This document shows positions 7,940 through 47,017 of a stretch of DNA of 64,000 nucleotides, piece after piece. Positions within the stretch are counted from its first letter, which is position 1, and the number at the start of each line of letters is the position of its first letter. The stretch covers positions 129,482 to 193,481 of the forward strand of contig QOPF01000002.1 of the NCBI GenBank assembly GCA_003331625.1. Direction: 5' to 3'. The notes beneath the pieces were generated by a model. That model made no database searches and was not told the DNA's origin. It was given only the letters and a program-made list of their open reading frames with translations. Both the position numbers and the translations under genes were made by a program. Source of the DNA: Gammaproteobacteria bacterium (GTDB lineage Bacteria > Pseudomonadota > Gammaproteobacteria > Magnimaribacterales > AG-339-G14).

Positions 7940-7968
7940 AGAAATAAGTTATTTTATCATCGAGAAAT

Positions 7969-9075
7969 TTATTTTAAATTCTTTATTTTTGAATATGTAA
8001 ATAATAAAGCTTTTTTAGCATTCCTTGGAGATAGTTTAGCCTCATAAGTAAGAGCTAAATTATCTGATACTTTTTTTAAATTATGAGGCTTGCAATAAAA
8101 ATTAATTGCTTCTATCCACTCACTTAAAGTTGAAGCAAACAAGGCATCATGTCTATTTTTTAGAATTTCTTGATTTCCACCGACTTTAGAAAGAATAAGG
8201 GGTTTTGAGATACTACCTGCCTCAGGAATAATTAAAGGGAAAGTTTCAAAATTAGAACATAGAGCTATAAATTCAGCCTTATGCATTAAGCTATATATAT
8301 CACTTCTTTGTCCTAAGAATATCAAATCGTCTTTTTTATTTTGCATTGAAGAATTGATAAAGTTTTTAAAATTTACTGATTTGGTACCTTCGCCAGCAAA
8401 AATAAGCTTCCCTTTAAAATTAGATAAGTCGAATGCTTTTGCCAAGGTCAAATGATCTTTTGAATTACTTACTCTTGCTGGCATTAAGAAGTATTTATAA
8501 TCTTTATTTATAAAACCTTTTATTGGTAGTTGTGAATTTTTTAAATTAGATGAGTTGTAAATTACTGAAAAATTTTTTTTTGAAATCTTTAATCCCTCTT
8601 TAGAAGCTTCTCTCATTAAGCAATTGGCAACTCCAATGTATGAACATCTAGAAAATTTCATTAATAATTTTTCTACCAAAACTATTAATTTAAATTTCCA
8701 ACCTGAAAATCCTCTCCATGGCCAACCATGAATAGTTAATAAAACTTTTTTTCTTGTGATAATAGATAAAACTCTGCCATAAATTCCTGCCTTAGCACTA
8801 TGACAGTGAATTAAATCTGGATTTATTTTAAAAACCAAATAACAGAATTTGAAAAAAATAAAGAAATCTTTTAGGAAATTAAGTGAACTTTTTATCCCTT
8901 TTAAAATGGATACCTTTTCACCTAATTCTTCTATTAAGCGATTCGAAACTGGACCATAATCTCCAAAAATACAACTAAAATCTACTTCTTTTTTTAATAA
9001 ATGAATTATGCTTTCGACGTGCCGCGGAACTCCAGCTTCATCTCCATTTGTTGAAACTAAAAGTACTTTAATCAT
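7969..9075 (-). CDS. Family 4 glycosyltransferase (GT-B)
   Basis: The 368-residue protein has a GT-B N-terminal loop with GVPRHV, HCHSAKAGIYGR in the first half, and the C-terminal donor-site motif FETFPLIIPEAGSISKPLI, with the E(x7)E of retaining GT4 enzymes, followed by GGNQEIL. It should add a hexose to the lipid-linked oligosaccharide at the cytoplasmic membrane face. Its start overlaps the polysaccharide deacetylase stop by eight bases. The sugar donor is unknown; UDP-hexose from galU/galE is plausible from context only. Confidence 0.85.
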   Translation of the reverse strand: MIKVLLVSTNGDEAGVPRHVESIIHLLKKEVDFSCIFGDYGPVSNRLIEELGEKVSILKGIKSSLNFLKDFFIFFKFCYLVFKINPDLIHCHSAKAGIYGRVLSIITRKKVLLTIHGWPWRGFSGWKFKLIVLVEKLLMKFSRCSYIGVANCLMREASKEGLKISKKNFSVIYNSSNLKNSQLPIKGFINKDYKYFLMPARVSNSKDHLTLAKAFDLSNFKGKLIFAGEGTKSVNFKNFINSSMQNKKDDLIFLGQRSDIYSLMHKAEFIALCSNFETFPLIIPEAGSISKPLILSKVGGNQEILKNRHDALFASTLSEWIEAINFYCKPHNLKKVSDNLALTYEAKLSPRNAKKALLFTYSKIKNLK

Positions 9076-10070: not shown

Positions 10071-11168
10071 TTATCTAATAAATCTTATTTTTTTATTTAT
10101 GTTCATAATAAAAAGTCTCAAACGTTGATGATTTTTTATAAAATTAATTACTCTTAAAGTTTTACAAAATATAAAACCTTTGAAACTATTATAATCATAA
10201 TAAGTTATTAAGTTTGTGGAGTTGTTACTCCATTTTTTTTTAAAGTCTTCCGAACCAACAGTAAAATCAAATTTTTTTAAACCGCATTCAATTGAGTGAA
10301 TTATTAATTCATAAAGCAATATTCTACCTGGAGAATATTTATCGAAATTTGATCTTTTAAAAGAAGGAAAAATCCAATAAAAAGTATCGTCATAAATAAA
10401 TCCTAAGTGAGTTGCTAATATTTCATTGTTAAGAGATAAATAAGATAGATGTATTTTAATTTTACCTAGGTCGCTTAAATATAGAGATTCATAAAAATTT
10501 TTTACATCATCTTTAGCAAGTATATTTCTAACTCCCGTTTCTATGTATCTATGTTCTTTTTGTTCAAAAGTTTCTGCTATGATTTTTTTATAGTCCTTGG
10601 ATGAATCACATATTATAAATTTTAATTCACCCCTTTCTGCAATACGCCTTCTTCTTCTTAGTGTTTGACTTTTTGAACTTTTTGAAATGAAACTGAGATT
10701 TTCAATATTACTTGGCAGGTCTATTTGAAAACTTTCCTGTAACGATTTTGAAAAATTTAAAGAAGCAAATGGATTAGAACAACCGCTAATGTGTGAAGGG
10801 ATTTTATCCAAATACTTAACATCATGCTTGGGAAGAGATTCATTTATTTTTTGCCATACTTCAAAAATATTTATATTTTTATCAAAAATAGGAGTTTTAT
10901 AATCAAATTGATCTTGTCCAAAAAATTCAATAATTGTATTGAAATACTTTGTTTTTAAAATTAAAGGAAATATTGCAACTGCTACATTGTCAATAAATGC
11001 AACTTTAATGATTGTTTTTAGATATTTATCTTTTGATGCTATTTTTTCAAACCAGTTTTTGTGCCATGAGAAAGATTGAAAAACAGAAAAAGAATTTTTT
11101 TCTTCCATTTTTTCCCATAATAACCTTAAAGTTGCGTCAGAAAATTCTAATTCCTTAATCTCTATCAT
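10071..11168 (-). CDS. FemAB/CelD-like GNAT acyltransferase
   Basis: The 365-residue protein matches the BioF2-like/FemAB-type GNAT family found in exopolysaccharide loci. SKSQTLRRRRRIAERGELKF near the middle and YWIFPSFKRSNFDKYSPGRI followed by KFDFTVGSEDFKKKW near the C-terminus are the typical conserved blocks of this group (Acetyltransf_6). It probably transfers an acyl or aminoacyl group onto the glycan. No membrane helix is seen. Its start overlaps the stop of the Wzy-like gene by one base. Confidence 0.75.
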   Translation of the reverse strand: MIEIKELEFSDATLRLLWEKMEEKNSFSVFQSFSWHKNWFEKIASKDKYLKTIIKVAFIDNVAVAIFPLILKTKYFNTIIEFFGQDQFDYKTPIFDKNINIFEVWQKINESLPKHDVKYLDKIPSHISGCSNPFASLNFSKSLQESFQIDLPSNIENLSFISKSSKSQTLRRRRRIAERGELKFIICDSSKDYKKIIAETFEQKEHRYIETGVRNILAKDDVKNFYESLYLSDLGKIKIHLSYLSLNNEILATHLGFIYDDTFYWIFPSFKRSNFDKYSPGRILLYELIIHSIECGLKKFDFTVGSEDFKKKWSNNSTNLITYYDYNSFKGFIFCKTLRVINFIKNHQRLRLFIMNINKKIRFIR

Positions 11169-12439
11169 TACTTATAAATTTTAAAACTACTTTTGTAAGA
11201 CATGGAAAAACATACTCCTAAGAAAAAAAATAAATAAAAGATATATCTTGGATAATGAGAAGCCGCAACAGAAAAAATTACTAAAATGAGAATATAATTA
11301 ATGTACTTTTTTATACTAGTTCCCTTCAAAAAAATAACAAAAAAAATATAAAAAATAAGAAAAAAATAGGTTAAAAATCCATATTCAAGAAAAAGTAAAA
11401 TATTTGGTGTCAGGTCATCAAAATCTCCTGCTCTTGCTCCCATAAAGTAATCTCCTACATAGTTATAAAATAGAGGTCCATATGATAAGTAAATTCTTGG
11501 ATCTGATAAATTATTAATAATTGCCATTAATGAAAGATATCTCTTATCAGTTTGTAAAATATAAGAAATAATCTGACCTTCTTCGTTTGTTAAATCAGAT
11601 CTAAAAAGAGTGCTCAATGCTTGATAGTAATAAAAGAACGTATCGGTATTAACGAATAATATGATTACGGGTATGCTGAAAAAAAGAGAAACGTAAAACC
11701 AGGTCTTATTGGGCTTAAAAAAAAGCAAAACAGAAAAAACAAGAAAACTCATCAAACTCAGGTATCTAGTTTGAGCAAGAAGAATTTCTATAAAACCTAA
11801 AGTCGCTGAAAATAAAAGAATATTTGAAAAATTAATTTTTATATTTTTTCTCTCAAAGTAAATATAAAAGGCTAATGAAAGTGACATCCAGATAAATCTA
11901 TTTGTTGCAAAAAAGTGGGTATGCCATTCCAAGCCTTTATAAGCAAGAATTACAAAATCGCCGCCAATGATATTACCTCTTGTCTGATAGGATACATAAT
12001 CTTCGGAATTTGGACGAAAAATGTCCAAGGAAAAGATATCGAAATAAAAATTTATAATGCCGACTATTCCAATAATGATATAAGCTAGAGAAATATTTTT
12101 TAAAAAAAATAAAAAAGAGTCATAAGTCACGAACATGATTCTTCCTACATAATAGGAAGAAAAAAATAAAATGAGACTAACGAAAAATATTAAATATTGA
12201 ATATTGCTTATCCAAAAAACAGAAAATGGAATTATAGATAAAAGTAAAAAAAGAGGTATTGTGTCGTATTTATTTAAAACAGAAGGATTCTTTATCCAAA
12301 AAATTAATACCAATGCTAAGCAGAAAAGATAGCAAACTTTATTGATATCTATATTATTTCCAACAACGCTTATTCCAATTCCAGAAGGAAAAACAATGGA
12401 AATTATAAAAAGAACAATTAGGTTCTTTGAAATGACCAC
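11168..12439 (-). CDS. O-antigen polymerase/ligase-like membrane protein (Wzy type)
   Basis: The 423-residue protein is almost entirely hydrophobic, with about ten transmembrane segments. It has one large hydrophilic loop around 265-340 (DTFFYYYQALSTLFRSDLTN onward), matching the Wzy/WaaL layout. Wzy proteins polymerise repeat units in the periplasm, while WaaL ligases join them to lipid A core. Sequence cannot separate these, but the cluster position with Wzz favours polymerase. The frame begins at GTG (12439), right at the end of the aminotransferase gene. Confidence 0.75.
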   Translation of the reverse strand: MVISKNLIVLFIISIVFPSGIGISVVGNNIDINKVCYLFCLALVLIFWIKNPSVLNKYDTIPLFLLLSIIPFSVFWISNIQYLIFFVSLILFFSSYYVGRIMFVTYDSFLFFLKNISLAYIIIGIVGIINFYFDIFSLDIFRPNSEDYVSYQTRGNIIGGDFVILAYKGLEWHTHFFATNRFIWMSLSLAFYIYFERKNIKINFSNILLFSATLGFIEILLAQTRYLSLMSFLVFSVLLFFKPNKTWFYVSLFFSIPVIILFVNTDTFFYYYQALSTLFRSDLTNEEGQIISYILQTDKRYLSLMAIINNLSDPRIYLSYGPLFYNYVGDYFMGARAGDFDDLTPNILLFLEYGFLTYFFLIFYIFFVIFLKGTSIKKYINYILILVIFSVAASHYPRYIFYLFFFLGVCFSMSYKSSFKIYK

Positions 12440-13555
12440 CTAAATTTCCTTCAAAACATCTTTTAGGGTCTTTGAGATATAGTCAATATCTTTTAAATTT
12501 AAGTCTGGGTGTAAAGGTAAGGTAATAATTTGATTAAATATTCTCTCAGTAACTGGCAAAGTTAATTTCTTTTTAAAAAACTTATCTAAAAAATGATTTG
12601 GTTGATAGTGTAGGCCAGTTTGAATATTTTTTTTTAGTAAATAACTTCTCAATTCTTCTCTATTGAATTTTTTCATTATCCTCAAAGGGTATATATGAGG
12701 AACTACTTCATCATAATTTCTGCTAATCGATGAAATATATTTAGATTTTAAGAAATTTGCATCGTATCTTTTAGCTAAACTTTTCCTAATCTTAAAAAAT
12801 TTATTTACTTTTTTTAACTGTTCTAAACCTATTGCAGCATTTAAATTACTCATGTGATATCTCCAACCCTGATTTTTTACGTTGAATGACCAGCTCCTTT
12901 CTGAAAGGTATCTTTTTTCTGAATCTTTTTCTATTCCAAGTAATCTTGAGTCATTTACATAATTAATCACTTCTTGATTTGATGAAACTACACACCCGCC
13001 TTCGCCAGATGTAATATTTTTTATTCCATCAAAACTAAAACAAATGATATCCCCAAAAGATCCAACTTTTTTTGAGTTGTATTCTGTACCAAAAGCATGA
13101 GCTGCATCCTCAATAACCCTTAGATTATTTTTTTTTGCAAATTTATATATGCTGCTTAAATTTCCAACTCCCCCAGAGTAATGAACCGGCATGATGGCTT
13201 TAGTTTTGTTTGATAGCTTTTTTTTAGCATCCTTTAGACAAATGGTAAGTGATTTATCATCAATGTCACATGCCACTGGAATAGCTCCAGTAGCTGAAAT
13301 TGCTTGAAAACTTGCTACATAAGTTAGTGACTGAACCAAGATTTCATCATTTCTTTTTATACCACAAGCTTCTAAAGCAAGTTGAAGCGCTGCTGTACCG
13401 CTTGAAACACATGAAACATTATTTGATAAATATAATGATAATTTTTCTTCGAATTTTTTTACACTATCTCCCATTCCTAAGTATTCGTCATTCAAGACTC
13501 TCAGAACGGCTTCTTTTTCTTTGCTGTCAATACAGGATTTAGATAGTTTAATCAT
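12440..13555 (-). CDS. DegT/DnrJ/EryC1/StrS-family sugar aminotransferase
   Basis: The 371-residue PLP enzyme has SSGTAALQLALEA at the cofactor phosphate site, VIEDAAHAFG with the pyridine-binding Asp, and the catalytic Lys near 179 in FSFDGIKNITSGEGG. It converts a keto-sugar nucleotide to the amino sugar with Glu as donor. Because the active-site Lys is present, it is not an RfbH/ColD-type dehydratase. The partner keto-sugar could come from RfbG or Gmd elsewhere in the locus, or from the SDRs. Which one is undecided. Confidence 0.85.
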   Translation of the reverse strand: MIKLSKSCIDSKEKEAVLRVLNDEYLGMGDSVKKFEEKLSLYLSNNVSCVSSGTAALQLALEACGIKRNDEILVQSLTYVASFQAISATGAIPVACDIDDKSLTICLKDAKKKLSNKTKAIMPVHYSGGVGNLSSIYKFAKKNNLRVIEDAAHAFGTEYNSKKVGSFGDIICFSFDGIKNITSGEGGCVVSSNQEVINYVNDSRLLGIEKDSEKRYLSERSWSFNVKNQGWRYHMSNLNAAIGLEQLKKVNKFFKIRKSLAKRYDANFLKSKYISSISRNYDEVVPHIYPLRIMKKFNREELRSYLLKKNIQTGLHYQPNHFLDKFFKKKLTLPVTERIFNQIITLPLHPDLNLKDIDYISKTLKDVLKEI

Positions 13556-13583: not shown

Positions 13584-14363
13584 CTACCTTATTTTTAAAA
13601 AGCCCTTCAACTCTGTAATAAATATAAATATAAATATAGCTGGATAATTTAAAACTTTGGCATGTTTAAAAATGTTTTGATAAAAATATCTTTTTTCGTA
13701 AAGCCAACTTTTATAATCTTCTTTGGTTGTTAAATTATTTGAATGTTTTCTTGAAAATTCTAAAATTTTTTTTATATTTTTAAACCTATAAATTAAAGAT
13801 AGCCTTATCCAAAGGTCAAAATCTCCTAGTAAATTGAATTTTTCATCAAACTTATTTTCATTTAGAATTTTTGTTTTTATGAGCATTGTTCCAATAGAAA
13901 TATTATTTCTTAAAAGCAATTTATTTGTAAGATGAGAATTATCTTCTTTTCTAAGTACTTTTTCATATAATTTTAAATTTTTATCAACTACTTGATAACC
14001 GCCAAAAATAATTTGATGACCTTCAGAAGCAAACTTGCTTTGAATCTCTAACTTTTCTTTGTCCCAAAGATCATCACAATCTAAGAAAGTTATGAATTCA
14101 CCCTGACATTTTTCTATTGCTCGATTTCTTGCAGAATATAGCGGTTCGTTTAAAAGCGAATAGAAATACTTTATTTTTGTATTATTAAAAGATTTAACAA
14201 TTTTTGAAGAGTTATCAGAAGAATTATTGTCCCAAAAAACTATTTCCCAATTTTTATAAGTTTGCTGAATTACTGAGTCTATAGCATCTTTCAAAAACAT
14301 TTCTGAATTATAACAATTCATTATTATGCTTATTAAAGGTTTCTGACTATTTTTACGTGACAT
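13584..14363 (-). CDS. Family 2 glycosyltransferase
   Basis: The 259-residue GT-A protein has ISIIMNCYNSEMFLKDAIDS, WDNNSSDNS and the DxD-like FLDCDDLWD, all standard for inverting GT2 enzymes. There is no long membrane segment apart from a hydrophobic C-terminal stretch (IFIFIFI). It starts one base inside the stop of the DprE2-like gene and so belongs to the same transcription unit as the arabinose-lipid module. The donor is unknown. Confidence 0.85.
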   Translation of the reverse strand: MSRKNSQKPLISIIMNCYNSEMFLKDAIDSVIQQTYKNWEIVFWDNNSSDNSSKIVKSFNNTKIKYFYSLLNEPLYSARNRAIEKCQGEFITFLDCDDLWDKEKLEIQSKFASEGHQIIFGGYQVVDKNLKLYEKVLRKEDNSHLTNKLLLRNNISIGTMLIKTKILNENKFDEKFNLLGDFDLWIRLSLIYRFKNIKKILEFSRKHSNNLTTKEDYKSWLYEKRYFYQNIFKHAKVLNYPAIFIFIFITELKGFLKIR

Positions 14364-15112
14364 TAAAAATTCATTCTTTTAAAAATAAATTCTGGAATTA
14401 ATTTAACTATCGTCATTATGGAAAACCAAAATTTTGAATAAACAACATTTTTTTTCTTTTTATGAGCTTGATAGATAATTTTTGCAATTTGTTCTGGAGA
14501 AGATGTTATGAACTTTGGTAGATTGAGATGGTTTGTCATTTTAGTTCTGACGAAGCCCAGTTTAACTGTTATGACAGAAATTTTTGATTTCCCTAACTCC
14601 TGCCTTATAGATGAGGAAAAAGAAGATAAACCTGCTTTAGAAGATCCATAAAATGGGTTCTTTAATCTTCCTCTATCTCCTGCAACAGAGCTTAAAATTA
14701 TGATTGATGCTTTTTTGTCACTATTGACTAAATAGTCTTTTAGTTTGGAAAGAAAAATAATAGGACCTGAAAAGTTTGTAGCAACAATATCATTAATTTC
14801 CTGAGAGAAATGTCCTCTATTTTTTGATGAAATTAATTCATCAGACTCCATCTTGCCTGGACAAAATAATACAAGATCGGGGCTTTCTTTTAAATTTGAA
14901 AAGAAGTTATCAAACGAATCAAAATCTCTTATGTCTAAAGGAATTAAAAAACAATTTTTTGAAGAAGTATCAGAAATTTCTTTTACAAGATCTTTACAAC
15001 TTTGAGTTTTTCTAGAAGTCAAAGTAATTGAATATTCCTTTTCGGCTAATAGCCTAGCAGTTGCAGAAGCAATATCTGAAGATCCCGAAATAATTAAAGC
15101 AGACTTATTCAT
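14363..15112 (-). CDS. dprE2: DprE2-like decaprenylphosphoryl-keto-pentose reductase (SDR)
   Basis: The 249-residue classical SDR has IISGSSDIASATARLL at the nucleotide loop, LSSVAG, and YGSSKAGLSSF (YxxxK). In isolation it is just an SDR. Its start overlaps by four bases the stop of the DprE1-like FAD oxidase, and such pairing is the hallmark of DprE1/DprE2, which epimerise polyprenylphosphoryl-ribose to polyprenylphosphoryl-arabinose. DprE2 performs the NADH-dependent reduction of the 2-keto intermediate. The assignment is mainly by context. Confidence 0.8.
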   Translation of the reverse strand: MNKSALIISGSSDIASATARLLAEKEYSITLTSRKTQSCKDLVKEISDTSSKNCFLIPLDIRDFDSFDNFFSNLKESPDLVLFCPGKMESDELISSKNRGHFSQEINDIVATNFSGPIIFLSKLKDYLVNSDKKASIIILSSVAGDRGRLKNPFYGSSKAGLSSFSSSIRQELGKSKISVITVKLGFVRTKMTNHLNLPKFITSSPEQIAKIIYQAHKKKKNVVYSKFWFSIMTIVKLIPEFIFKRMNF

Positions 15113-16407
15113 AATATATTTAATCTTTCAGACTGTTCAGAATGAAAATTTTTAATATTATATTTATTTAAAATATTTCTTAAGCCGTCCGCGTCATAGT
15201 TCATTAAAGAAAAACTATCTTTTGAAAGCCTGCTATCCTTTGCTAAATAAACCTTTCCTGAGTGTTTCATAACTATTTTGTCTAGCTCTGAAAGAAGACG
15301 GAAAGTTTTCTCATTAACTTGAAAATCCATAGCTAGGGTAAAACCTTCATCAGGAAAAGATAGAAGTCCTTTATTGCCTTTTTTAAATAATTTTAAGACA
15401 GATAAAAAAGATGCTTCCTTAGAATGAGTTACTTTCTCTAAAACTTCTCTAATAGCTTCAAGAGACCCTTTCTTAGGGACTAAAAACTGATATTGAATAA
15501 ATCCATTTTTCCCATAAATTTTATTCCAATGCGAAATTTTATCTAGGGGATAAAAAAAAGAATCTCCATCAACTTCTTTCTTCGTAAAAAATTTATTAGA
15601 GTAAAAATAGAAATAATTAAATAATTTAATTGAAAAATAATTCAATATCCAAGACGGAAAAAAGAAGGGTATTCTCAATATGTATTTTGGATTATATGAA
15701 ATTTTACCTTGAGATAATTTGTGCTCACCTTTAAAAAAAACTGATCTTCCAAATGAGCTTCCTTTCGACAAACAGTCTATCCATGCCACCGTATATGTAG
15801 AATTCTTATATTTTTCAAAAAGACTCATTACTTCTTCTAAATTTTGAGTAACGGTAACCTCTTGATTTATTTTGTAACTTGAGATTTTCTTTAATTTAAA
15901 TTTAATCTCCGTAATGATTCCTGTTAGCCCCATACCCCCAATAGTTGCCCAGAATAAATCTGAGTTAAAATCATCTGAACAATACATTACTTCCGAATTT
16001 GAAATTTTTATTTTTAAACTAATCAAGTGATCTCCAAAGGAGCCTTCTAGATGATGGTTTTTTCCATGAACATCTGAAGCAACCATTCCCCCCAATGTCA
16101 CAAATTTTGTACCCGGGGAAACTGGAAGAAACCATCCTTTGGGTATGAGAATTTTTAAAAGCTCATCTGAAGAGATTCCAGACTGAACACAAATTACTCC
16201 TAACTCTTCATCAAAAGAGATAATTTGATTTAAATTCTTTGTAATTATTGTTTTATTAGTTTGAAGAGAGCTATCACCGTAAGACCTTCCTAATCCTCTT
16301 GAAATAATTTTTTCATTCTCATTAAATTTGATCTCATTTTCACTAGAGGGAATTTCAACTTTACAGTTGATTTTAGGATAATTGCCCCAGCCACTAATCT
16401 TAAGCAT
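15109..16407 (-). CDS. dprE1: DprE1-like FAD-dependent polyprenylphosphoryl-ribose oxidase
   Basis: This FAD-binding_4/ALO-type oxidase closely follows DprE1. It has the N-terminal ISGWGNYP, the FAD-binding SRGLGRSYGDSSL, GVICVQSGIS, PVSPGTKFVTLGGMVASDVH, and GKNHHLEGSFGDH, which holds the conserved His residues of the active site. DprE1 oxidises polyprenylphosphoryl-ribose at C2'. I choose the ATG at 16407, three residues before the GWG motif and overlapping the gtrA stop. A longer frame begins at TTG 16434 but has no ribosome-binding site. The C-terminal half fits the substrate-binding domain, and the length is close to that of mycobacterial DprE1. Confidence 0.88.
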   Translation of the reverse strand: MLKISGWGNYPKINCKVEIPSSENEIKFNENEKIISRGLGRSYGDSSLQTNKTIITKNLNQIISFDEELGVICVQSGISSDELLKILIPKGWFLPVSPGTKFVTLGGMVASDVHGKNHHLEGSFGDHLISLKIKISNSEVMYCSDDFNSDLFWATIGGMGLTGIITEIKFKLKKISSYKINQEVTVTQNLEEVMSLFEKYKNSTYTVAWIDCLSKGSSFGRSVFFKGEHKLSQGKISYNPKYILRIPFFFPSWILNYFSIKLFNYFYFYSNKFFTKKEVDGDSFFYPLDKISHWNKIYGKNGFIQYQFLVPKKGSLEAIREVLEKVTHSKEASFLSVLKLFKKGNKGLLSFPDEGFTLAMDFQVNEKTFRLLSELDKIVMKHSGKVYLAKDSRLSKDSFSLMNYDADGLRNILNKYNIKNFHSEQSERLNIL

Positions 16408-16792
16408 TTGGGTTAAAGGTAATTTTTTTATCAAGTTGGTATTTCATGAAGAAGCCAATGCTAAGTCCAATTACAGCACCAGAGATTTTAAATGCTTTTG
16501 ACTCAAATAAATATAAAAAAATTAGCTCAAAGCTCCAAAAAATAGTTGTAGTTAATATAGCTGTCGAAGAATATAACATTAACTCTTTTAGGGAAAAGAT
16601 AGTATCCTCACGGGTAAAAATATATTTCCTGTCCACATAAAATTTAAATAAAAATCCAGTGATTGTCCCATTAAGAATAGAAAAGATTATATTTGAATAA
16701 AAAATTAGTGTGATTTCCTGAGAAGTTATATTTATCAGTATTGAAAAAAAAGAAAATAAGAAATACTTTAAAAAAATTTTTTTCTTAATCAT
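16400..16792 (-). CDS. GtrA-family four-helix membrane protein, likely polyprenyl-phosphate-pentose flippase
   Basis: The 130-residue protein has four hydrophobic helices, the GtrA layout: GTITGFLFKFYVDRKYIF after helix two and FFMKYQLDKKITF at the C-terminus. GtrA proteins are associated with flipping lipid-linked sugars. In Mycobacterium the GtrA protein Rv3789 sits beside dprE1 (Rv3790) and is linked to arabinose-lipid handling. The same neighbour order here supports that role. It lies directly after the HAD-UbiA gene and overlaps the dprE1 start. Confidence 0.8.
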   Translation of the reverse strand: MIKKKIFLKYFLFSFFSILINITSQEITLIFYSNIIFSILNGTITGFLFKFYVDRKYIFTREDTIFSLKELMLYSSTAILTTTIFWSFELIFLYLFESKAFKISGAVIGLSIGFFMKYQLDKKITFNPNA

Positions 16793-18226
16793 CTAAAGAG
16801 CAAGAATAAAAAAGAAAAGTACTAAAGTGCCCATTAAAATACTTAAACGATCCTTTATTGCAAAAACTATTGGATCATCAGTAATTTTACCGTCAACAGA
16901 TGTTTTATAAATGTTTAAAAACCATGCGAGAGTAATAAATGGAATAAAGAGAAGATAAAAGGGATTTGTGTAAATTTCTAAAGCTTGGTTTGAGAAAAGA
17001 TATACAGCTAGTAAAAAGCACCCAGCTGATCCAGTCAAAAGTGAAAAGATTTTTAAAAAATTTATATCTGAGCTTTTGAAACCTCTATCTGCTTTTATAA
17101 TTTCATTTTCTGAGAGTTGAGTTAATTCACCGAGTCTTTTAATAGATGACAATCCTAGAAAAAAGAAAAAGGAAAATGAAATTAGCCAAATGGAAATATC
17201 TAAATTTGTAGCTTCTCCTCCAGCATAAATTCTTAAAGAATAAAAGAAAGATAGTATAAAGAGAGAAATAGAAGTCAATTTCTTAAAATAGAATGAATAA
17301 AAGAAATTTAAAATAATATAAGACAATAAAATCCAAAAAAAACTTATAGGTAGAAAAGATATTGAAATCAAAAAAGAAAAAGAAATTAAAATGATAAATA
17401 TAAAAAAAGATTGAAAAATTGATATTTCTCCATTGGTAATCGGTCTTTCTTTTTTTCTTGGGTGGATCCTGTCTTTATGTATATCAAAGATATCATTAAA
17501 AATATAAACAGATGAAGATATCAGTGAGAATGAAAAAAAAGCAACAGCGCTTGAGAAGAAATTTGAAAATCCAAAATTTGCAGCCAACATCATTGGAACA
17601 AAAATTAGAAAGTTTTTGACCCACTGATAAAGTCTTATCGCTTTGAAGAGAGATTTAATTTTTTTAAAAAAAGAAATTTTATGGGTCAAAAAAATTAAAT
17701 TCTTTTTAAGGTCTTTATCTTTAACTCTGAAAAAAATGTTTTTATTATAAACGTAAGCTTCGTTAGAAATTTTCCATATTGGAATATCTTCTACCGAATT
17801 TCCAATATAAGAGAAAGAGTCCATTTCAAAATGACTTTTTATGTATTCAATTTTTTTTAAGCCTTTTAAACTTAAGTTTTGTCTTGATCCGAATGCATAA
17901 TCAAAAATTTTTAATTTTTCCGATATCTCTGACACTTGCCTTTGATGACTAGCTGAACATAATATTATAATTGATCCCTCTTCTTTCTTTTTTTTAATAA
18001 TAGAAATCACCTCTCTTGAAAAATTTAAGTTTTCAAATTCAAGTAAAGAATTTTTTGACATTTTTTCTTTTACATTTTCTTTACCTTTCAAAAGTATTGA
18101 GAGAAAAATAAAAAAGTTTTTAATCGGATTTTTTTTTATAAAACTTATGATTGACTCCTCTAAGGTATCGCTTGGAGTTAATGTTCCGTCCAAATCTACA
18201 ATAAGATAATGCTTATTAGAATTCAT
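16793..18226 (-). CDS. HAD phosphatase fused to UbiA-type prenyltransferase (phosphoribosyl-polyprenol-phosphate synthase)
   Basis: Residues about 1-180 form a HAD domain (VDLDGTLTPSDT, LCSAS, YIGNSVEDIP). Residues about 195-477 form a multi-helix UbiA domain with NDIFDIHKDRIHPRKKERPI and a second Asp-rich loop near TDDPIVFAIKDR. UbiA enzymes of this group join PRPP to polyprenyl phosphate (DPPR synthase, first step to DPA). The fused HAD could remove the 5'-phosphate, which the mycobacterial path needs before DprE1. The gene starts within the GT-C stop and ends against gtrA, so the module is translationally coupled. Confidence 0.82.
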   Translation of the reverse strand: MNSNKHYLIVDLDGTLTPSDTLEESIISFIKKNPIKNFFIFLSILLKGKENVKEKMSKNSLLEFENLNFSREVISIIKKKKEEGSIIILCSASHQRQVSEISEKLKIFDYAFGSRQNLSLKGLKKIEYIKSHFEMDSFSYIGNSVEDIPIWKISNEAYVYNKNIFFRVKDKDLKKNLIFLTHKISFFKKIKSLFKAIRLYQWVKNFLIFVPMMLAANFGFSNFFSSAVAFFSFSLISSSVYIFNDIFDIHKDRIHPRKKERPITNGEISIFQSFFIFIILISFSFLISISFLPISFFWILLSYIILNFFYSFYFKKLTSISLFILSFFYSLRIYAGGEATNLDISIWLISFSFFFFLGLSSIKRLGELTQLSENEIIKADRGFKSSDINFLKIFSLLTGSAGCFLLAVYLFSNQALEIYTNPFYLLFIPFITLAWFLNIYKTSVDGKITDDPIVFAIKDRLSILMGTLVLFFFILAL

Positions 18227-19926
18227 AAGTTTTCACATAAGTTTTCATTTATTCTCCATATGAAGAACGAATTAGTTGCATTATTTTTTTTTGAAAAAGA
18301 TGGATTTGAATTCCAGATTAATTCTAAATGAGGCCACATTGCGTTTAAATATTTTCCTCTATATGTTCTTATTTGTGACTTTTCTCTGAATAACTGTTCA
18401 GGCATAAATTCATCTACATGTATATTTCTAAACTCAGCATTAAGAAATAAATACTTAATTTTTTGATTGCAGGTGTATTGAACAAATGCTTCTTTTTTTA
18501 AAATATTTAGAAAATTATTAGAATTTACTAGACCTTCTAATTGTATGGTGTGATGATTTAAATGAAATCCAAGTTGGCCTGCTGCCCAGGCTCCTACAAT
18601 TGAATTTTTAGGAAGGTTTTCATTTGCCCATTCATAAGCCTTTACATATAAATTGTTATTTTCTCCGCCAAAAGATATATGATCCTTTGTGGAATTTTGA
18701 TATGAGAAGATAGGAAAAATCTGAAGCAAGGCTGCAAAAATAATTACAAAAGAGATATTCATACCAGAAACATACTTTCTGAATAAAATATCAAAATTAT
18801 TAAGAGCAAGGATTAAAAAGGTAAAATAAAGAATAAACAATCCTGAAAGTCCATATGTCCAATTATCTAAACCTATAAGAAAAATATTGTAGTAAAGAAC
18901 TTGAAAGATTGAATAAAGGATAACCGATAAAATTAGAATTATTTGAACAGAAAATTTCATGCTTGCCTTTTTGGAAACGAAATAAAAAGGAATAAAGAAA
19001 AATACAAACGATATGAAAGAAATGAATAGAGAAACATAAAAATGAAAATTTATAAATTTCAAAATATATGGTGTCGCAAAGAAAGAAGAATATTTTAAGA
19101 AGGATATACTGTTTAAATAAACGTCATCTAAATAATAAAAGTAATCCTGAAATGTAGGATTTGGAAAAAAATACTTAAAAGTAGAGTAAAAATTTTTAAC
19201 CTCTCCGCTAATAGGAATAATTGATCCTGATGATATATATAGCCAAACCAAATAAGGGATGGTTACCATTAAATGAGATAACGAAGAAGTAAAAAAATAC
19301 TTTCGATTAATTAATAATAAGTATGAATATGGCAATATAAAAAAAATGAAAGAGTCTAATCTTGAAAGCATTGCTAGCCCTGTAAATATCCCAAAATAAA
19401 TATGGTATCTAGAGGTTTTCTCACTTATCAATATATTGAAGGTTCGTATAGATAAAATAACAAAAACAGCCAAAAGAGCTGTTTCCATACCATTAAAAAT
19501 ATATTGGCCTAATGTAGGAAAAAAACTAATCGAAATTACCAAAAATACAAGTGGAATAAAAGGTAGATTATTCTCGTCAAGAATTTTTTTAAAAATGTAA
19601 AAAAAATAAATAACTAAAAAAAGATTTATGAACAAAGATATCTTTAGTAAGTTTTCTCCAGAAAAAAAGAAAGAGGGGACTAATAAAATGAATTGCCATA
19701 ATGGTTGAAACCCATTTGTGAAATTTATTCCATCAAATGTGAAAAAACCCTTTATCCAAAAGTTTTCTGCAATTTTTAAATAATAATAGAAGTCATCTTG
19801 AAAAAAAATACCATTTCCTCTGGATTCATCTGGTAAAAAAATTCGCCAAGTAAATGCTAAAAATAGTAAAGAATAAATAATTAAATATTCTTTTTCTTTG
19901 AAAGATCTAATGAAATTCATTTGCAA
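18223..19926 (-). CDS. GT-C fold membrane glycosyltransferase, candidate pentosyltransferase
   Basis: The 567-residue protein has about ten hydrophobic helices and a large C-terminal hydrophilic domain from about 430 (residues such as GAWAAGQLGF and LEGLVNSNNF). An acidic pair near the first periplasmic loop (QDDFYYYLKIAENF, DxD-like) is typical of GT-C transferases that use polyprenyl-phosphate sugars. Position directly upstream of HAD-UbiA, GtrA, DprE1 and DprE2 makes it the best candidate to use polyprenylphosphoryl-arabinose. The start is either TTG 19926 or ATG 19920. Confidence 0.72.
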   Translation of the reverse strand: MQMNFIRSFKEKEYLIIYSLLFLAFTWRIFLPDESRGNGIFFQDDFYYYLKIAENFWIKGFFTFDGINFTNGFQPLWQFILLVPSFFFSGENLLKISLFINLFLVIYFFYIFKKILDENNLPFIPLVFLVISISFFPTLGQYIFNGMETALLAVFVILSIRTFNILISEKTSRYHIYFGIFTGLAMLSRLDSFIFFILPYSYLLLINRKYFFTSSLSHLMVTIPYLVWLYISSGSIIPISGEVKNFYSTFKYFFPNPTFQDYFYYLDDVYLNSISFLKYSSFFATPYILKFINFHFYVSLFISFISFVFFFIPFYFVSKKASMKFSVQIILILSVILYSIFQVLYYNIFLIGLDNWTYGLSGLFILYFTFLILALNNFDILFRKYVSGMNISFVIIFAALLQIFPIFSYQNSTKDHISFGGENNNLYVKAYEWANENLPKNSIVGAWAAGQLGFHLNHHTIQLEGLVNSNNFLNILKKEAFVQYTCNQKIKYLFLNAEFRNIHVDEFMPEQLFREKSQIRTYRGKYLNAMWPHLELIWNSNPSFSKKNNATNSFFIWRINENLCENL

Positions 19927-19928: not shown

Positions 19929-20657
19929 TTACTTTTTAAAAAAAATGAAAGCAGATTCAAGATTTCCAAAGATAGTTTTTTTAAATCTTTTTTTATTAAA
20001 ATTCACCCTTTCTAATTTTAAGTTACATTGATTAGCCATTATTTTGAAATCATTTAAGGTTCTATACCATCCTCTAAATTGGAGCTGTCTTATCGAAAAA
20101 AACAGAGCTAATACATTTTGCAAAAAAACTCTTAATTCTAACAATATTGAAATTATTTTTTGCTTAATTGAAGCATTATAGATATGAGCATTGCTAATTA
20201 TTATTTTTTCTGATTTGGATAGTATCTTTTCAAATTCCTTTTTGTTTAAAAAATATTCTGATAGGTTTAATACTATAAAGTCTCCTTCAGAAGGCATGAA
20301 TTCCTGCAGAGAAGACTCTAGGAAATCAACATTTTTAAATAATGATGAAACTTTTCTTATATGACTATCATCTACATCTATTAGAAGAAATTTTTTGGAT
20401 GGATATTTCTGCAAAAAATGTATCTCTTTAAGGCAATCAAAGACCCCAATAAAAACAACTCTTTTTGAGACCTCAATTTGCTCAGAAATAAAATCTTCTT
20501 CCTCATCATAATCTTCATGACATGGTCTTGACTTTAGTAAAATAGATTCATCAAATACTAATTCTTTAATATTTTGTTTATAGTCAGAAATGACTGATAT
20601 TTTAAAAAGGTTCCAAAATTTTTTCTTTGAATCAGCAGAAGTGTAGAATCTCATCAT
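19929..20657 (-). CDS. Methyltransferase-like Rossmann protein, unknown
   Basis: The 242-residue protein has a possible Rossmann nucleotide-binding pattern: RVVFIGVFDC, then FLLIDVDDSH about 25 residues later, then FIVLNLSEYFL. That resembles motifs I and II of class I SAM methyltransferases, although the glycine loop is weak. Late residues (FRGWYRTLNDFKIMANQCNLKLERV) also match the C-terminal part of small methyltransferases. I cannot assign a substrate. It begins 12 bases after the aminotransferase stop and ends two bases before the GT-C gene. Confidence 0.5.
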   Translation of the reverse strand: MMRFYTSADSKKKFWNLFKISVISDYKQNIKELVFDESILLKSRPCHEDYDEEEDFISEQIEVSKRVVFIGVFDCLKEIHFLQKYPSKKFLLIDVDDSHIRKVSSLFKNVDFLESSLQEFMPSEGDFIVLNLSEYFLNKKEFEKILSKSEKIIISNAHIYNASIKQKIISILLELRVFLQNVLALFFSIRQLQFRGWYRTLNDFKIMANQCNLKLERVNFNKKRFKKTIFGNLESAFIFFKK

Positions 20658-21978: not shown

Positions 21979-23535
21979 TTACTCTTGAAGGGTGCTTTTT
22001 AAAAACATTGCTGATTTGCCATTATCAGGAGTATACATATTGTTTATATAATCCTTAATAAGGTCAGTGTCGAAAGTTTTATCTATTTTTTTATTTATAA
22101 GATTGTCAGAAAACTCCTTTAAATTTTTTGGATCAAGTTTTGTATTCCATTCATCAAAATAAAAAAATCTATCTTCAAGATATTTATCGTCTAAGAAAAA
22201 TTGAAAGGATTTTACACCCTGCATAAGGGATTCTATTCCAAACGAATTATCATTAAAAAGTACAAAATCATAATTGAATCTTAAATTTTCAACATCAACC
22301 TTATTTATTATTTTAAAGTTTTTTGGAATATCAAAGTTTCTTTCTAAAGAATAAAAATCATATTGAGGATGAAATCTTAAATGAATCTCTAAAGAATCAT
22401 GCTCAAAATATTTTTTTAGAATTTCAATTATTGGAAGATATTTTGACTTATTCACAGAAAATGAATACAAAATTTTATTGGTGTAAGATAAGTTTGGTTG
22501 TTTTACATTATATTTACCATTTGAAGTATCATAATTAAATCTTAGAGAAAAGAAGGTTTCTATTTGAGTTCTGATATTACAGTTTTCTTTTAAAAACTTA
22601 GTAAAATTATCACCAACTGTAAGAATCACATCAGGCTCAGGTATTTCTTCGCCAGGTATATTAAAGAAGTTTAAAAATAATGGTGAGAACCCACTGCCCT
22701 GCACTCCTATTGTCTTGATATTATCTTGAGAAAAAGAGTTGCAACAAACTTTTTCCCAAGCCTGATTTTCAAAAACATATATAAATGCCTTAATTTCTTT
22801 ATTTATTAGTTTTTGTGAAATAAATTTTTCTTCAAAAGCTATAAAAGATCTAAATTTTAAAAAATCTAGTAGTAATGATCTATTTATTTGTTTTGTGACA
22901 TTCTTTTTTTTATAAAAAAAACTTTCCTGAGTTTTTAATCTTCCATATCTTAAATAGTCCAAAAAAATAAAAAATATATCTTTTATTGTTAAAAGAGCTT
23001 GAGGAATTATAAAGAGGTAATCATTGTCCTTTTTACTGTAAAACTTCTTCACTCCTTGAAAGCTATATGCATGTAGGGCCGAAATTACTAGATATTGACT
23101 TGATATCCTTGAGGGAAGATCTCTAAAATGTTCATCGATTAATTTAATTCCATCTAAGCATCTTGGCTCTAACCAAGATCGAAAATATAAAGCATTTTTA
23201 GGGAAGTTTATTTTTGGTGATTTAAATTTTATATAAAATAAAAAAAATATTTTTATAAATAACTTTGGAATAAATTGGAAATAAGCTTTGAAAAGTTCAT
23301 ATGAAGAATTATTTGGGTGATTTTTATCAATAATAGATTCATATAGTTCAGTTATAGTTTCTTGTTTACTTAAGGTTGGACTTGCTAATTTATATTCATC
23401 TTTTTCAAAACTTATCCTGACTTTATTAAGAATAAGATTATATTCTTCTAAATAATCACTATAAATTGAATTAGAAGTCTTCACAAAAAAGCTGGATAGG
23501 TTATTTGGATAAATTTTCCCATGGTCTTGATCCAT
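21979..23535 (-). CDS. Putative GT-B-like surface-glycan transferase, unknown family
   Basis: I do not recognise a family with certainty. Its C-terminal half has features of GT-B capsule or poly-phosphopolyol transferases: GVQGSGFSPLF, PDVILTVGDNF, the LRFHPQYD box and FVLFNDNSFGIESLMQGV, which resembles a donor-site helix. No membrane helices except a short one near 110-120. It overlaps the rfbF 3' end by about 35 bases; ATG 23535 follows an in-frame TTG. Together with context it is probably a glycosyltransferase working on the lipid-linked glycan. Confidence 0.5.
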   Translation of the reverse strand: MDQDHGKIYPNNLSSFFVKTSNSIYSDYLEEYNLILNKVRISFEKDEYKLASPTLSKQETITELYESIIDKNHPNNSSYELFKAYFQFIPKLFIKIFFLFYIKFKSPKINFPKNALYFRSWLEPRCLDGIKLIDEHFRDLPSRISSQYLVISALHAYSFQGVKKFYSKKDNDYLFIIPQALLTIKDIFFIFLDYLRYGRLKTQESFFYKKKNVTKQINRSLLLDFLKFRSFIAFEEKFISQKLINKEIKAFIYVFENQAWEKVCCNSFSQDNIKTIGVQGSGFSPLFLNFFNIPGEEIPEPDVILTVGDNFTKFLKENCNIRTQIETFFSLRFNYDTSNGKYNVKQPNLSYTNKILYSFSVNKSKYLPIIEILKKYFEHDSLEIHLRFHPQYDFYSLERNFDIPKNFKIINKVDVENLRFNYDFVLFNDNSFGIESLMQGVKSFQFFLDDKYLEDRFFYFDEWNTKLDPKNLKEFSDNLINKKIDKTFDTDLIKDYINNMYTPDNGKSAMFLKSTLQE

Positions 23536-24271
23536 CAAGCCACAATGATTCTAATCTATCAAAGTCTCTTTTTGTATCCATGCACTGCCAAAATCCTTCA
23601 TGTTTGTAAGCCATTAATTCTCCCAATTTTGCAACCTCTTCCAATGGTGATGATTCTAATACTGTTTCATCATTTTCAATGAACTCAATAAACTCAGGCT
23701 CGATAATAAAAAAACCTCCATTGATCCAATCCTTTCTCGTTTGAGGTTTTTCTTTAAATGATAACACCTTGTTATCCTCTATAGAGAGTTCTCCAAATCT
23801 TGCAGATGGATGAACAGCGCTTACTGTAACCATCTTTCCATGACTTTGATGAAATTCTAATAATTCATCTATATCAATATTCGATAACGCATCTCCATAG
23901 GTCAACATGAAGGTTTCTTGCAAGTAAGGTTTAAGTCTTTTTAATCTTCCGCCTGTCATAGTTTCAATTCCAGTTTGAATTGCGTTTACTTTCCAATCTA
24001 TTTTTTCTTTATTTAGAAAATCTACCTTTTGATTTTGTAGATCTAAAGATAAGTCAGAATTAAGTGAATTAAATTTTAAAAAATATTCTTTTATTACGTT
24101 TGATTTGTAGCCCAGAGCCAAATAAAAATCTTTGTGTTTAAATCTAGCGTAATGATTCATTATGTGCCAAAGAATAGGTTTATTTCCTATTTCTACCATT
24201 GGCTTAGGCAAATCTTTACTAAATTCTGCTATTCTTGTGCCGAATCCGCCAGCTAAAATCACTACTTTCAT
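23501..24271 (-). CDS. rfbF: Glucose-1-phosphate cytidylyltransferase
   Basis: The 256-residue protein follows RfbF from the N-terminus: VVILAGGFGTRIAEFSKDLP, KPMVEIGNKPILWHIM, LALGYKSNVIKEYF, MLTYGDALSNIDI and INGGFFIIEPEF. It makes CDP-glucose from CTP and glucose-1-phosphate. The next enzyme of that branch, RfbG, lies 2.2 kb downstream in sequence number, so the CDP branch is split by the methyltransferase and NeuA-type genes but still in one operon. The assignment is firm. Confidence 0.92.
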   Translation of the reverse strand: MKVVILAGGFGTRIAEFSKDLPKPMVEIGNKPILWHIMNHYARFKHKDFYLALGYKSNVIKEYFLKFNSLNSDLSLDLQNQKVDFLNKEKIDWKVNAIQTGIETMTGGRLKRLKPYLQETFMLTYGDALSNIDIDELLEFHQSHGKMVTVSAVHPSARFGELSIEDNKVLSFKEKPQTRKDWINGGFFIIEPEFIEFIENDETVLESSPLEEVAKLGELMAYKHEGFWQCMDTKRDFDRLESLWLDGSRPWENLSK

Positions 24272-26422: not shown

Positions 26423-27487
26423 TTATTTATTTTCGTATTCTTCTATTTGAGAAAGAGTAAATTCTTTTATGTTTAGTTTTGAATCATAGAAATTTTTATA
26501 CCACTGTACAGTGGCAGAAGCACTTTCTTCAAAAGACATTTTTGGTTTCCAGTTCAAAAAATGTAGTGCTTTATCACAGTTTAATTTAAGGAGACTTGAT
26601 TCCTTCTGCCCATCATCTAACCGTAAAATTTTCCATTTAATCTTTTTCCAATCTTTAGACATAGTCTTTATAAGATCTTTAACAGAAACATTCAAATCAT
26701 TACTTGGTCCAAAATTAAATGCCTCGCCATGTATGTTTTTATTTTCATATAAATTTTTAGCTAAGACCAAATATCCTGAAAGAGGCTCAAGTACATGTTG
26801 CCATGGTCTAGTAGAATTAGGATTCCTAATTTGTGTTACTGTATTTATACTTGCCGATTTCATGCAATCAGGAACAATTCTATTTTCTGACCAATCACCG
26901 CCTCCAATGACATTTCCAGCTCTTCCAATAGATAATTTTATATTTCCTTCATCAGGGAAAAAAGATCTTTGAAATGAGCTAATTGCAATTTCTGCTGCAC
27001 CTTTTGATCCACTATATGGATCTGGGCCACCTAGTCTGTCAGTTTCTCTATATCCCCAGGACCATTCGAAATTATCATAAGATTTATCACTTGTTATAAA
27101 CACAGCGTAAACATTTTTTTTTAATTTTCTTATCGCATTGAGTAAATAGACACTACCAAGCGTATTTGTTTTAAAAGTTTCTATTGGATTTAAATATGAT
27201 TCTTTAACAAGTGATTGAGCTGCTAAGTGAAAAATAAAGTCTGGTTGAAATTTAATAACTTCTTTTTCTAACCTATCATCTTTAGATATATCGAGGTATA
27301 TGCTTTTTATTTCCTTATGCAATTTTAATTCTTTATAGAGAGATGGCTTTGTAGGAATTCCTTTAGATACCCCAAGAATTTTTGCATCCATTTTTAAAAG
27401 CCATTGAGTTAGCCATGCTCCTTTAAATCCAGTATGGCCAGTTATAAGTATTTTTTTTCCTTTGAAAATTTGTTTCATATTATTCAT
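26423..27487 (-). CDS. rfbG: CDP-glucose 4,6-dehydratase
   Basis: The 354-residue extended SDR matches RfbG: FKGKKILITGHTGFKGAWLT, FHLAAQSLVKESYLNP, TSDKSYDN (acidic and basic catalytic residues), YSGSKGAAE (YxxxK), GNVIGGGDWSENRIVPD and RPWQHVLEPLSGYL. It converts CDP-glucose to CDP-4-keto-6-deoxyglucose. Start is ATG 27487, with a second ATG at 27478. Its partner RfbF lies further along the same transcript. Confidence 0.92.
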   Translation of the reverse strand: MNNMKQIFKGKKILITGHTGFKGAWLTQWLLKMDAKILGVSKGIPTKPSLYKELKLHKEIKSIYLDISKDDRLEKEVIKFQPDFIFHLAAQSLVKESYLNPIETFKTNTLGSVYLLNAIRKLKKNVYAVFITSDKSYDNFEWSWGYRETDRLGGPDPYSGSKGAAEIAISSFQRSFFPDEGNIKLSIGRAGNVIGGGDWSENRIVPDCMKSASINTVTQIRNPNSTRPWQHVLEPLSGYLVLAKNLYENKNIHGEAFNFGPSNDLNVSVKDLIKTMSKDWKKIKWKILRLDDGQKESSLLKLNCDKALHFLNWKPKMSFEESASATVQWYKNFYDSKLNIKEFTLSQIEEYENK

Positions 27488-29216: not shown

Positions 29217-29226
29217 AACTAGTTAA

Positions 29227-29994
29227 CTAAAATGTTGCTAAAGGATTTTGGGAAAATTCTGTAAGAAAAACTGCATCAATTGAAAAAGGAATAAAGGTAC
29301 ATCCTTTTTTAATGAGATTTTTCAATTCTTTTTTAGAAGGACTTACTTGATGGAATCCAAAAGGTATAGAATTTTTTTTACATTCTTTAATAATAAGGTC
29401 GATGTGATCTTTGAACTTTTTATTTTTAAAATCTCCAGTAATTCCGAGAGATGCAGATAAATCATATGGTCCGATTAAAATACCATCTAAACCTTTAACA
29501 CTTAAAATTTCTTTTAAGTTTTTAATTGACTCAGCATTTTCTATCATAGCAATAATCAATGGACTGTTTGCTTCTTTGATGTATTTATGGAAGTTTTTTC
29601 CAAAAAGGTTTGCCCTAGAAAAGCCTACTCCTCTTTTTCCTGAGGGAGGCCAACATGAATATTTAATAACATCTTTTAGTTCTTCTTTATTTTTTATCAT
29701 TGGAGCGATTACTCCAGCAGCCCCTGCATCAAGTGCTGTTTTACAATTTTCTTTTGTGCAATCGGCCAGCCTTGCAAGAGGAATAGTATTGGTTAACTCT
29801 AATGCCCTAAATATATCTGGTAAAGATTCCACGGAAAATGACCCATGTTCAAGATCGACAGCTACCCAATCATAATTTTGATTTCCCATAATTTCTGCTA
29901 TGGAAGAGCTTGGAATTTGCATCCAACTACCAATGCTAGGTTCATTATTTGTGAGTTTTGATCTTAGTTTTTTTAAACTGTTAAATTTGTTCAT
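29227..29994 (-). CDS. HpcH/HpaI-family class II aldolase
   Basis: The 255-residue protein is a clear HpcH/HpaI aldolase: GSWMQIPSSSIAEIM, VAVDLEHGSF, ALDAGAAGVIAPMI, ENAESIKNLKEIL and DGILIGPYDLSASLG. These enzymes are metal-dependent pyruvate aldolases that join or split 2-keto-3-deoxy acids. The metal-binding acids and Arg70-type residue (LARLAD) are present. Placed next to a HAD phosphatase and near CMP-ulosonate transferases, it may build a 3-deoxy-ulosonic acid rather than degrade one. Only biochemistry could settle the direction. It overlaps the HAD gene by 14 bases. Confidence 0.85.
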   Translation of the reverse strand: MNKFNSLKKLRSKLTNNEPSIGSWMQIPSSSIAEIMGNQNYDWVAVDLEHGSFSVESLPDIFRALELTNTIPLARLADCTKENCKTALDAGAAGVIAPMIKNKEELKDVIKYSCWPPSGKRGVGFSRANLFGKNFHKYIKEANSPLIIAMIENAESIKNLKEILSVKGLDGILIGPYDLSASLGITGDFKNKKFKDHIDLIIKECKKNSIPFGFHQVSPSKKELKNLIKKGCTFIPFSIDAVFLTEFSQNPLATF

Positions 29995-46132: not shown

Positions 46133-47017
46133 TTAAGTATTTCTTGAAATAAAAAGAAATCTAACTAATGTTATTGAGATACTTATAAAAATTCCGAAGA
46201 GAAAACAAAAAATCACTATCTGACTTCTTAATGGTTCTATTTTTTTTTCAGGAGTAAAAGGGGGATCTACTATCTGAAAAACATAGTCTTCCTTGAACTT
46301 AATTAACATCTGTTTCTTTAGCTGTTCTTCCATCATTGAGCTAATTAAAGATTTTATTGAAGATACTTTAGAAGTTAAAAATTTTTTATTTAAATATTCA
46401 ATAGAATTTTCTGTCTCTGCAAGATCTTTTTCTACTGTAAGTTTATGAAATTCATTTAAAACAAGATCAAGAAAATCTTTAGCAAAAATAGGTGATAGAT
46501 GTTTGAAAGAAACTTTTATAATGCCTGTATTTTCTTCACGATCTATTTCTAAATTTTCTAATAGAAATGAATGAGCCTCTAAGGGTGTTGGTTTTTTTCT
46601 TGGAAGCCATTTTTCTGACGAACTATCAAAAAGATCACTATCAAAAACTAATTCTCCTGAAGAAATATCATAAGAAGATGGGGCCATTAAGTTTTCTAAA
46701 ATCCCAGGAAAGGATAAAAGATGTTGATGAAATTTTCTTGATTTAAGGGTTTCTATGTATACGAAAAGCTTATTTTTTTCTTGATTGATATTGATTCCTG
46801 CTAAATTGGCTAAACTTCCAATTTGTGAACTAACGCCTGGTAGATCCTCTTCTTTTGGAAAAAGAGTGGTCTCACTTTTATAAATATCTTGTAAAAATAA
46901 AACATAGATTATTGAAGATATTGTGAAAAAGAAAGTGAATAAAAAAATAAAAATTTTTTCTTTATTTAAAATTTTGAAAATATCTCTTAGAGTTGTTTCT
47001 TGAAATTTTTCTTCCAT
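46133..47017 (-). CDS. wzz: Wzz-type chain length determinant
   Basis: The 294-residue protein has an N-terminal transmembrane helix (about 20-42), a periplasmic region with coiled-coil helices, and a second C-terminal helix preceded by a Pro-rich stretch (VDPPFTPEKKIEPLRS). This is the polysaccharide co-polymerase (PCP1) topology. It controls chain length together with a Wzy polymerase. It starts 11 bases past the tRNA-Leu 3' end and is followed by the ABC exporter. No tyrosine kinase domain is present. Confidence 0.85.
   Translation of the reverse strand: MEEKFQETTLRDIFKILNKEKIFIFLFTFFFTISSIIYVLFLQDIYKSETTLFPKEEDLPGVSSQIGSLANLAGININQEKNKLFVYIETLKSRKFHQHLLSFPGILENLMAPSSYDISSGELVFDSDLFDSSSEKWLPRKKPTPLEAHSFLLENLEIDREENTGIIKVSFKHLSPIFAKDFLDLVLNEFHKLTVEKDLAETENSIEYLNKKFLTSKVSSIKSLISSMMEEQLKKQMLIKFKEDYVFQIVDPPFTPEKKIEPLRSQIVIFCFLFGIFISISITLVRFLFISRNT

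Follow-up and report, generated by a model that had tools for sequence, protein, structure and literature searches.

A predicted lipid-linked D-arabinofuranose cassette in the surface-glycan locus of a small-genome gammaproteobacterium

Introduction

In the mycobacterial decaprenyl-phosphoryl-arabinose (DPA) pathway, D-arabinofuranose (Araf) is produced on a lipid carrier and transferred by Rv3806c, Rv3807c, DprE1 (Rv3790), DprE2 (Rv3791), the GtrA protein Rv3789 and AftA (Rv3792). For the route proposed below, the steps after dephosphorylation, namely those of DprE1, DprE2, flipping and transfer, are established for mycobacteria or inferred. Here we describe five genes in a gammaproteobacterial genome of 1.09 Mb (G+C content 0.295), located within a 64,000-nucleotide stretch of contig QOPF01000002.1 (positions 129,482 to 193,481), the whole of which is referred to as the window. 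The small size and low G+C content of the genome suggest a SAR86-like marine lineage. This cassette very probably represents the arabinose form of a known kind of extracytoplasmic pentofuranose addition, leading from phosphoribosyl pyrophosphate (PRPP) to polyprenyl-P-Araf, which would be flipped and added to an O-antigen-like polysaccharide.

Related systems are found in Gram-negative bacteria. The Citrobacter youngae O1/O2 system comprises ORF12 (GT136), ORF13 (epimerase), ORF14 (MATE) and ORF15 (HAD-UbiA PPPRS), while loci for Araf-containing glycans carry DprE1/E2 homologues instead of ORF13 (PMC11127046). Both activities of the fused HAD-UbiA enzyme have been demonstrated in Citrobacter (Kelly 2024, PMC11127046). 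In rhizobia (Azorhizobium, Rhizobium sp. IRBG74), the noeC(N)HOP operon serves Nod-factor D-arabinosylation, and NoeC, NoeH and NoeO, accompanied by a transferase, are counterparts of the decaprenyl-phosphoryl-5-phosphoribose (DPPR) synthase, DprE1 and DprE2 (PMC5080398). This operon and the pilin genes of Pseudomonas paraeruginosa are older Gram-negative examples. The kind of system is already known, and it is common in many Gram-negative bacteria. What is modestly new here is a rare GT-C family travelling with the cassette, the setting in a genome of about 1.1 Mb, and a natural split HAD and UbiA pair.

The mycobacterial pathway and the window share the same steps and the same families of synthase, oxidase, reductase and flippase. 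However, the separate phosphatase Rv3807c is unrelated to the HAD domain of the window, the GT-C proteins differ, and mycobacterial DprE1 lies on a separate long branch, with C387, Y314, N385 and S228 where the Gram-negative type has A, F, T and V. The C. youngae system resembles the window in its fused synthase with an N-terminal HAD domain, its location within an O-antigen locus, its dedicated epimerisation before export and its periplasmic GT-C; it differs in having a MATE flippase rather than GtrA and the ORF13 epimerase rather than DprE1/E2. The noeC(N)HOP operon, likened here by description and not by sequence, is also a compact Gram-negative lipid-linked D-Araf operon, but noeN has been put forward as a separate phosphatase gene there, and its acceptor is the Nod factor (PMC5080398). 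P. paraeruginosa likewise has a gammaproteobacterial lipid-linked D-Araf route with a GT-C transferase (PSPA7_6245-6251 plus TfpW), but a genomic island holds these genes at a distance from those for the pilin, the acceptor is the type IV pilin (PMC12369383), and the UbiA-type synthase has no HAD domain (PMC11127046).

Arrangement of the cassette and the predicted pathway

Five co-directional open reading frames on the minus strand occupy positions 14363-19926, in the transcription order GT-C-like protein, HAD-UbiA, GtrA, DprE1 and DprE2, and the largest gap between neighbours is 0. The GT-C/HAD-UbiA and DprE1/DprE2 junctions are 4-base overlaps, HAD-UbiA and GtrA abut (gap 0), and GtrA and DprE1 overlap by 35 bases if DprE1 begins at the TTG at 16434, or by 8 bases if it begins at the more plausible ATG at 16407 (MLKISGWG...). 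A preliminary description, made from the letters of the window, had the coordinates, gene order and broad naming right; its statement that the five genes overlap holds for three junctions but not for HAD-UbiA/GtrA.

The proteins would act as follows: the UbiA half transfers ribose-5-phosphate from PRPP to polyprenyl phosphate, giving polyprenyl-P-ribose-5-P; the HAD half removes the 5-phosphate, giving polyprenyl-P-ribose; DprE1 oxidises C2' to a 2-keto intermediate, which DprE2 reduces with inversion to polyprenyl-P-D-arabinofuranose; GtrA flips the product to the periplasm; and the GT-C protein attaches Araf to the O-antigen-like polysaccharide of a Wzz-dependent locus. For the synthase, phosphatase and DprE1/DprE2 steps, strong homology and conserved active sites argue for these roles; flipping and transfer are suggested by protein family and gene neighbourhood, and D-Araf as the product by gene content. 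With genes for a synthase, a flippase and a GT-C protein side by side in a glycan locus, the GT-C protein being recognised by weak homology and by its surroundings, the cassette has the makeup of a three-component pentofuranose addition system.

The HAD-UbiA fusion

The fusion scored 428.6 bits against NCBIfam NF006088 (cut-off 351) over residues 3-476, spanning both domains, and Pfam supported UbiA and HAD separately. Among PDB sequences, the UbiA half was closest to the Mycobacterium tuberculosis (Mtb) decaprenyl-phosphate phosphoribosyltransferase 8j8j (Rv3806c; E 3.8e-27), the next UbiA family following at E 0.0017. Across two alignments (15 and 21 sequences), the HAD nucleophile D11 (D11xDGT) and the UbiA motif N244-D245-xx-D248-xxx-D252 were invariant, and K363R364..E367 (KRxxE) was invariant or nearly so. 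The AlphaFold2 (AF2) model was confident, with a predicted local distance difference test score (pLDDT) of 88.2 and a predicted template modelling score (pTM) of 0.86. Foldseek ranked 8j8j first (TMt 0.79) with other UbiA proteins next, and matched the N-terminal half to HAD phosphatases. By both sequence and fold, then, the UbiA domain is closest to a PRPP-using enzyme rather than to another prenyltransferase, as the preliminary description had assumed.

In a genome of the same order (G443), HAD (L183:7412-7948) and UbiA (7948-8805) are encoded by two genes that overlap at TAATG, each retaining its motifs, and DprE1 and DprE2 come next. This split pair speaks for the HAD domain acting as a phosphatase alongside the synthase. 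Together with the two activities of the fused enzyme (Kelly 2024, PMC11127046), it gives good support to the earlier suggestion that the HAD domain takes the role of the separate 5-phosphatase.

DprE1, DprE2 and GtrA

DprE1 matched NF053785 with E 1.6e-111, and Pfam FAD_binding_4 was supported. Its best PDB match was 4aut (E 5.7e-77); all nine matches below 1e-60 were DprE1, and the next flavoenzyme family came at 3.6e-7. Seven residues that are most commonly given a substrate or catalytic role in DprE1 (Y60, H132, K134, W230, Q334, Q336 and K418, Mtb numbering) are all identical in the window protein and are conserved among the operon homologues covering the site. For the DprE2 gene, the best characterised short-chain dehydrogenase/reductase (SDR) family was NF053786 DprE2, and the best-scoring model overall was NF005489. 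GtrA reached 108.3 bits against NF037976 (cut-off 50). Against PF04138 it reached 19.4 bits (cut-off 26.1; E 0.0013), but its homologues match this family with E-values down to 1.1e-11, which ties the window protein to PF04138. Families, active-site residues and fold thus support well the pathway from PRPP to a transferred furanosyl residue that had been proposed for these genes; neither the DprE1 residues nor the grouping of UbiA spoke against it.

Distribution of the cassette

When 369 genomes of the same class were surveyed at the NF006088 cut-off, the fusion was found in 45 (12%), a few matches covering the UbiA or HAD-side part only. Among relatives, 2 of 61 carried an over-threshold HAD-UbiA. 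Searching named genomes with a single peptide pattern yielded at least 571 confirmed fusion relatives, in Proteobacteria, Acidobacteria, Ignavibacteria/Bacteroidota-type metagenome-assembled genomes and Nocardioides. In the neighbourhoods of the best 80 of these, DprE1 and DprE2 lay near the fusion in 45, GtrA in 27, and the fusion stood without DprE1/E2 in 23. The one-strand order HAD-UbiA, GtrA, DprE1, DprE2 occurred in at least 17 named-record loci, as read from the table of the best 80, plus three further loci; its hosts include Shimia, Lutimaribacter, Yoonia, Nioella, Ancylobacter, Rhizobium, Sedimenticola, Granulosicoccus and Nocardioides. No fusion relative was found in viral contigs and phage records, and one phage example of a fused synthase is mentioned in the Citrobacter study (PMC11127046).

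Two claims of the preliminary description have to be given up in view of these data. The system cannot be called rare in Gram-negatives given the frequency of the fusion in the class and of the four-gene order, and "Mycobacterium-like" is not a remarkable property, as the operon is widespread and its DprE1 lineage is well separated from the mycobacterial one.

Observations weighing against the assignments

Several results run counter to the pathway proposed above. DprE1 scored 373.7 bits, below the NF053785 equivalog cut-off of 500, and differs from the Mtb protein at S228V, Y314F, N385T and C387A; DprE2 scored 218.9 bits against NF005489 (cut-off 267) and 118 bits against NF053786 (cut-off 250). 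DprE1 and DprE2 thus fall short of equivalog level, although these are their nearest characterised families. The GT-C protein reached 22.5 bits against Pfam PMT_2, below the cut-off of 26.1, and its AF2 model, built from three sequences, had a pLDDT of 38 and was unusable, so that no fold search was based on it. DprE1 homologues of other operons also remained under the NF053785 cut-off (392-395 bits), NF005489 was also the best model for the DprE2 genes tested from other such operons (340-347 bits), and each of the four DprE1 changes is common to 57-65 of 67 operon homologues.

The low scores might mean that DprE1/DprE2 are another oxidase/reductase pair, yielding ribose again or another pentofuranose, so that the final donor would not be Araf. 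The loci with the fusion but without DprE1/E2 fit such a possibility, as does the formation of xylofuranose by other epimerases (PMC11127046). However, every close structural relative of the window DprE1 is itself a DprE1, its active site is retained, the nearest characterised family of the reductase is DprE2, and the two genes occur together in more than half of the best 80 loci. We therefore consider a different donor quite improbable and retain Araf as the predicted product.

The DprE1 lineage

A quick DprE1 tree resolved two sets, the branch between them having a Shimodaira-Hasegawa-like approximate likelihood-ratio test (SH-aLRT) value of 100 (no bootstrap). GtrA was present within the fetched stretch in 25 of the 27 rows of the window's set and in 4 of the 43 rows of the other. 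Alanine occupies the Mtb Cys387 position in 65 of 67 operon DprE1 proteins, and F314, T385 and V228 complete the signature of the group. The window DprE1 thus belongs to a lineage that stands well apart from that of mycobacteria and is marked by residues of its own. Cys387 is the residue hit by covalent benzothiazinones, and alanine at this position sets the Gram-negative group apart from the mycobacterial drug target. In G428, a genome from the same family as that of the window, DprE1 falls into the other set. This suggests that members of the order acquired the gene separately, a reading to be taken with caution given the long branches and skewed composition.

The GT-C-like protein

The GT-C protein has about 10 transmembrane-like segments and an invariant Asp45 in an FxxDD(F/Y)YY region after the first of them. 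No PDB sequence matched it significantly, the sole profile match being AftB with E 0.44. The family occurs in 4 of the 369 class genomes, and its four closest relatives all lie in loci with the arabinose cassette. Resting on weak sequence homology and context, its assignment is the least certain of the five. We tentatively raise the possibility that it founds a rare family of polyprenyl-P-Araf transferases, distinct from GT136 and with a distant likeness to AftB, which would travel with the GtrA-type cassette and provide marine-type gammaproteobacteria of small genome size with an O-antigen decoration that can be swapped.

Selection and exchange

Compared with a same-genus species (G010), all five genes had ratios of nonsynonymous to synonymous substitution rates (dN/dS) of 0.09-0.17, with all frames open in both species. 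These values indicate purifying selection, the genes being kept for function, and, together with the recurrence of the four-gene order in at least 17 loci, they show that the arrangement is not due to chance. It could be argued that the operon no longer functions and is decaying after horizontal acquisition, as it is dispensable, with DprE1 present in just 4 of 121 relatives; with five open frames under such constraint, this idea is largely refuted and has very little left in its favour.

The block 11168-44318 (about 33 kb) shares about 79-99% protein identity with G010 and has a sharp edge near 11168. Many nearby genes are far less similar, at 45-70% (RNase D 62%, 10071-11168 48%, pyrF 45%, part of aroA 66%), although some conserved genes are highly similar (thiolase 97%, rpsA 92%). 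Apparently, the whole surface-glycan locus has been exchanged by recombination. The synonymous rate (dS) was 0.17 for the GT-C gene against 0.52-0.96 for the other four genes, from which the block seems to be mosaic, its parts meeting near 18.2 kb. The cassette looks like an accessory, horizontally moving trait, carried here within a surface-glycan locus that is itself exchanged, and offers a clean example of a complete gene set for lipid-linked D-arabinose in a genome of about 1.1 Mb, where each accessory gene is costly.

Genomic setting and the likely acceptor

The features of the cassette and its context are collected in Table 1. The flanks are packed as tightly as the cassette itself: a gene at 19929-20657, its family not recognised, lies 2 bases from the GT-C gene, and a GT2 glycosyltransferase gene (13584-14363) overlaps the DprE2 gene by 1 base. 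Hence, the cassette belongs to a polysaccharide operon that extends beyond it. As a scan for promoters and terminators found sites no more numerous than in shuffled sequences, no transcript boundary is claimed.

Table 1. Genes of the cassette and of its context in the window
Feature	Position	Strand	Basis or remark
DprE2-type SDR reductase (predicted 2'-keto to arabino)	14363..15112	-	YxxxK motif = YGSSK; Pfam adh_short
DprE1-type FAD oxidase (predicted polyprenyl-P-ribose 2'-oxidase)	15109..16407	-	alternative TTG start at 16434
GtrA-family small membrane protein (predicted polyprenyl-P-pentose flippase)	16400..16792	-	NF037976
HAD-UbiA fusion, predicted polyprenyl-phosphate phosphoribosyltransferase and 5-phosphatase (PPPRS, ORF15 type)	16793..18226	-	HAD 1-~160, UbiA ~190-477
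GT-C-like integral membrane glycosyltransferase (predicted pentofuranosyl, arabinosyl, transferase)	18223..19926	-	567 aa; PMT_2 sub-threshold
DegT/DnrJ/EryC1 aminotransferase (context gene)	12440..13555	-	PF01041 E 5.3e-93
Polytopic membrane protein, probable Wzy-type polymerase	11168..12439	-	423 aa, hydrophobic, Wzz-containing locus; no match in Pfam search
Wzz chain-length determinant (locus edge)	46133..47017	-	PF02706 E 4.7e-11

The five genes sit within a continuous polysaccharide locus of about 43 kb with sugar-nucleotide genes, glycosyltransferases and Wzz, as well as nucleotidyltransferases, DegT aminotransferases and NeuB. The locus adjoins gyrA, pheA, a hisC-like aminotransferase gene, tyrA, aroA, cmk and rpsA, the same genes that lie beside the O-antigen locus of Pseudomonas aeruginosa; this match makes the O-antigen the likeliest acceptor of Araf. 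A literature search on the O-antigen in SAR86 returned nothing relevant. Alternatively, the cassette might make the lipid-linked Araf donor for a protein (pilin-like) or another glycolipid, as GT-C enzymes take varied acceptors and the same donor is used for the pilin via TfpW in P. paraeruginosa (PMC12369383). Such an acceptor seems unlikely, given the position of the genes inside a continuous polysaccharide locus with Wzz; moreover, no pilin-like gene was noticed beside the cassette, although no dedicated model search for one was made. Addition to the O-antigen-like polysaccharide is thus the preferred prediction.

Elsewhere in the locus, a Pfam search gave no match for the large or mid-size proteins at 27480-29216, 21979-23538, 33135-34157, 38087-39202 and 19929-20657. 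The region 27480-44318 carries genes for NeuB, a GDP-mannose-dehydratase-like protein, an HpcH/HpaI aldolase, a 2-hydroxyacid dehydrogenase, and glucosamine-6-P-isomerase-like, GFO/IDH/MocA and CBS-DegT proteins, which suggests that the locus also encodes an unusual pathway to a nonulosonic sugar or another rare one. Adjoining Wzz, an ABC transporter (44326-46125) resembles MsbA/PglK in size and domains and is possibly a lipid-linked oligosaccharide flippase replacing Wzx.

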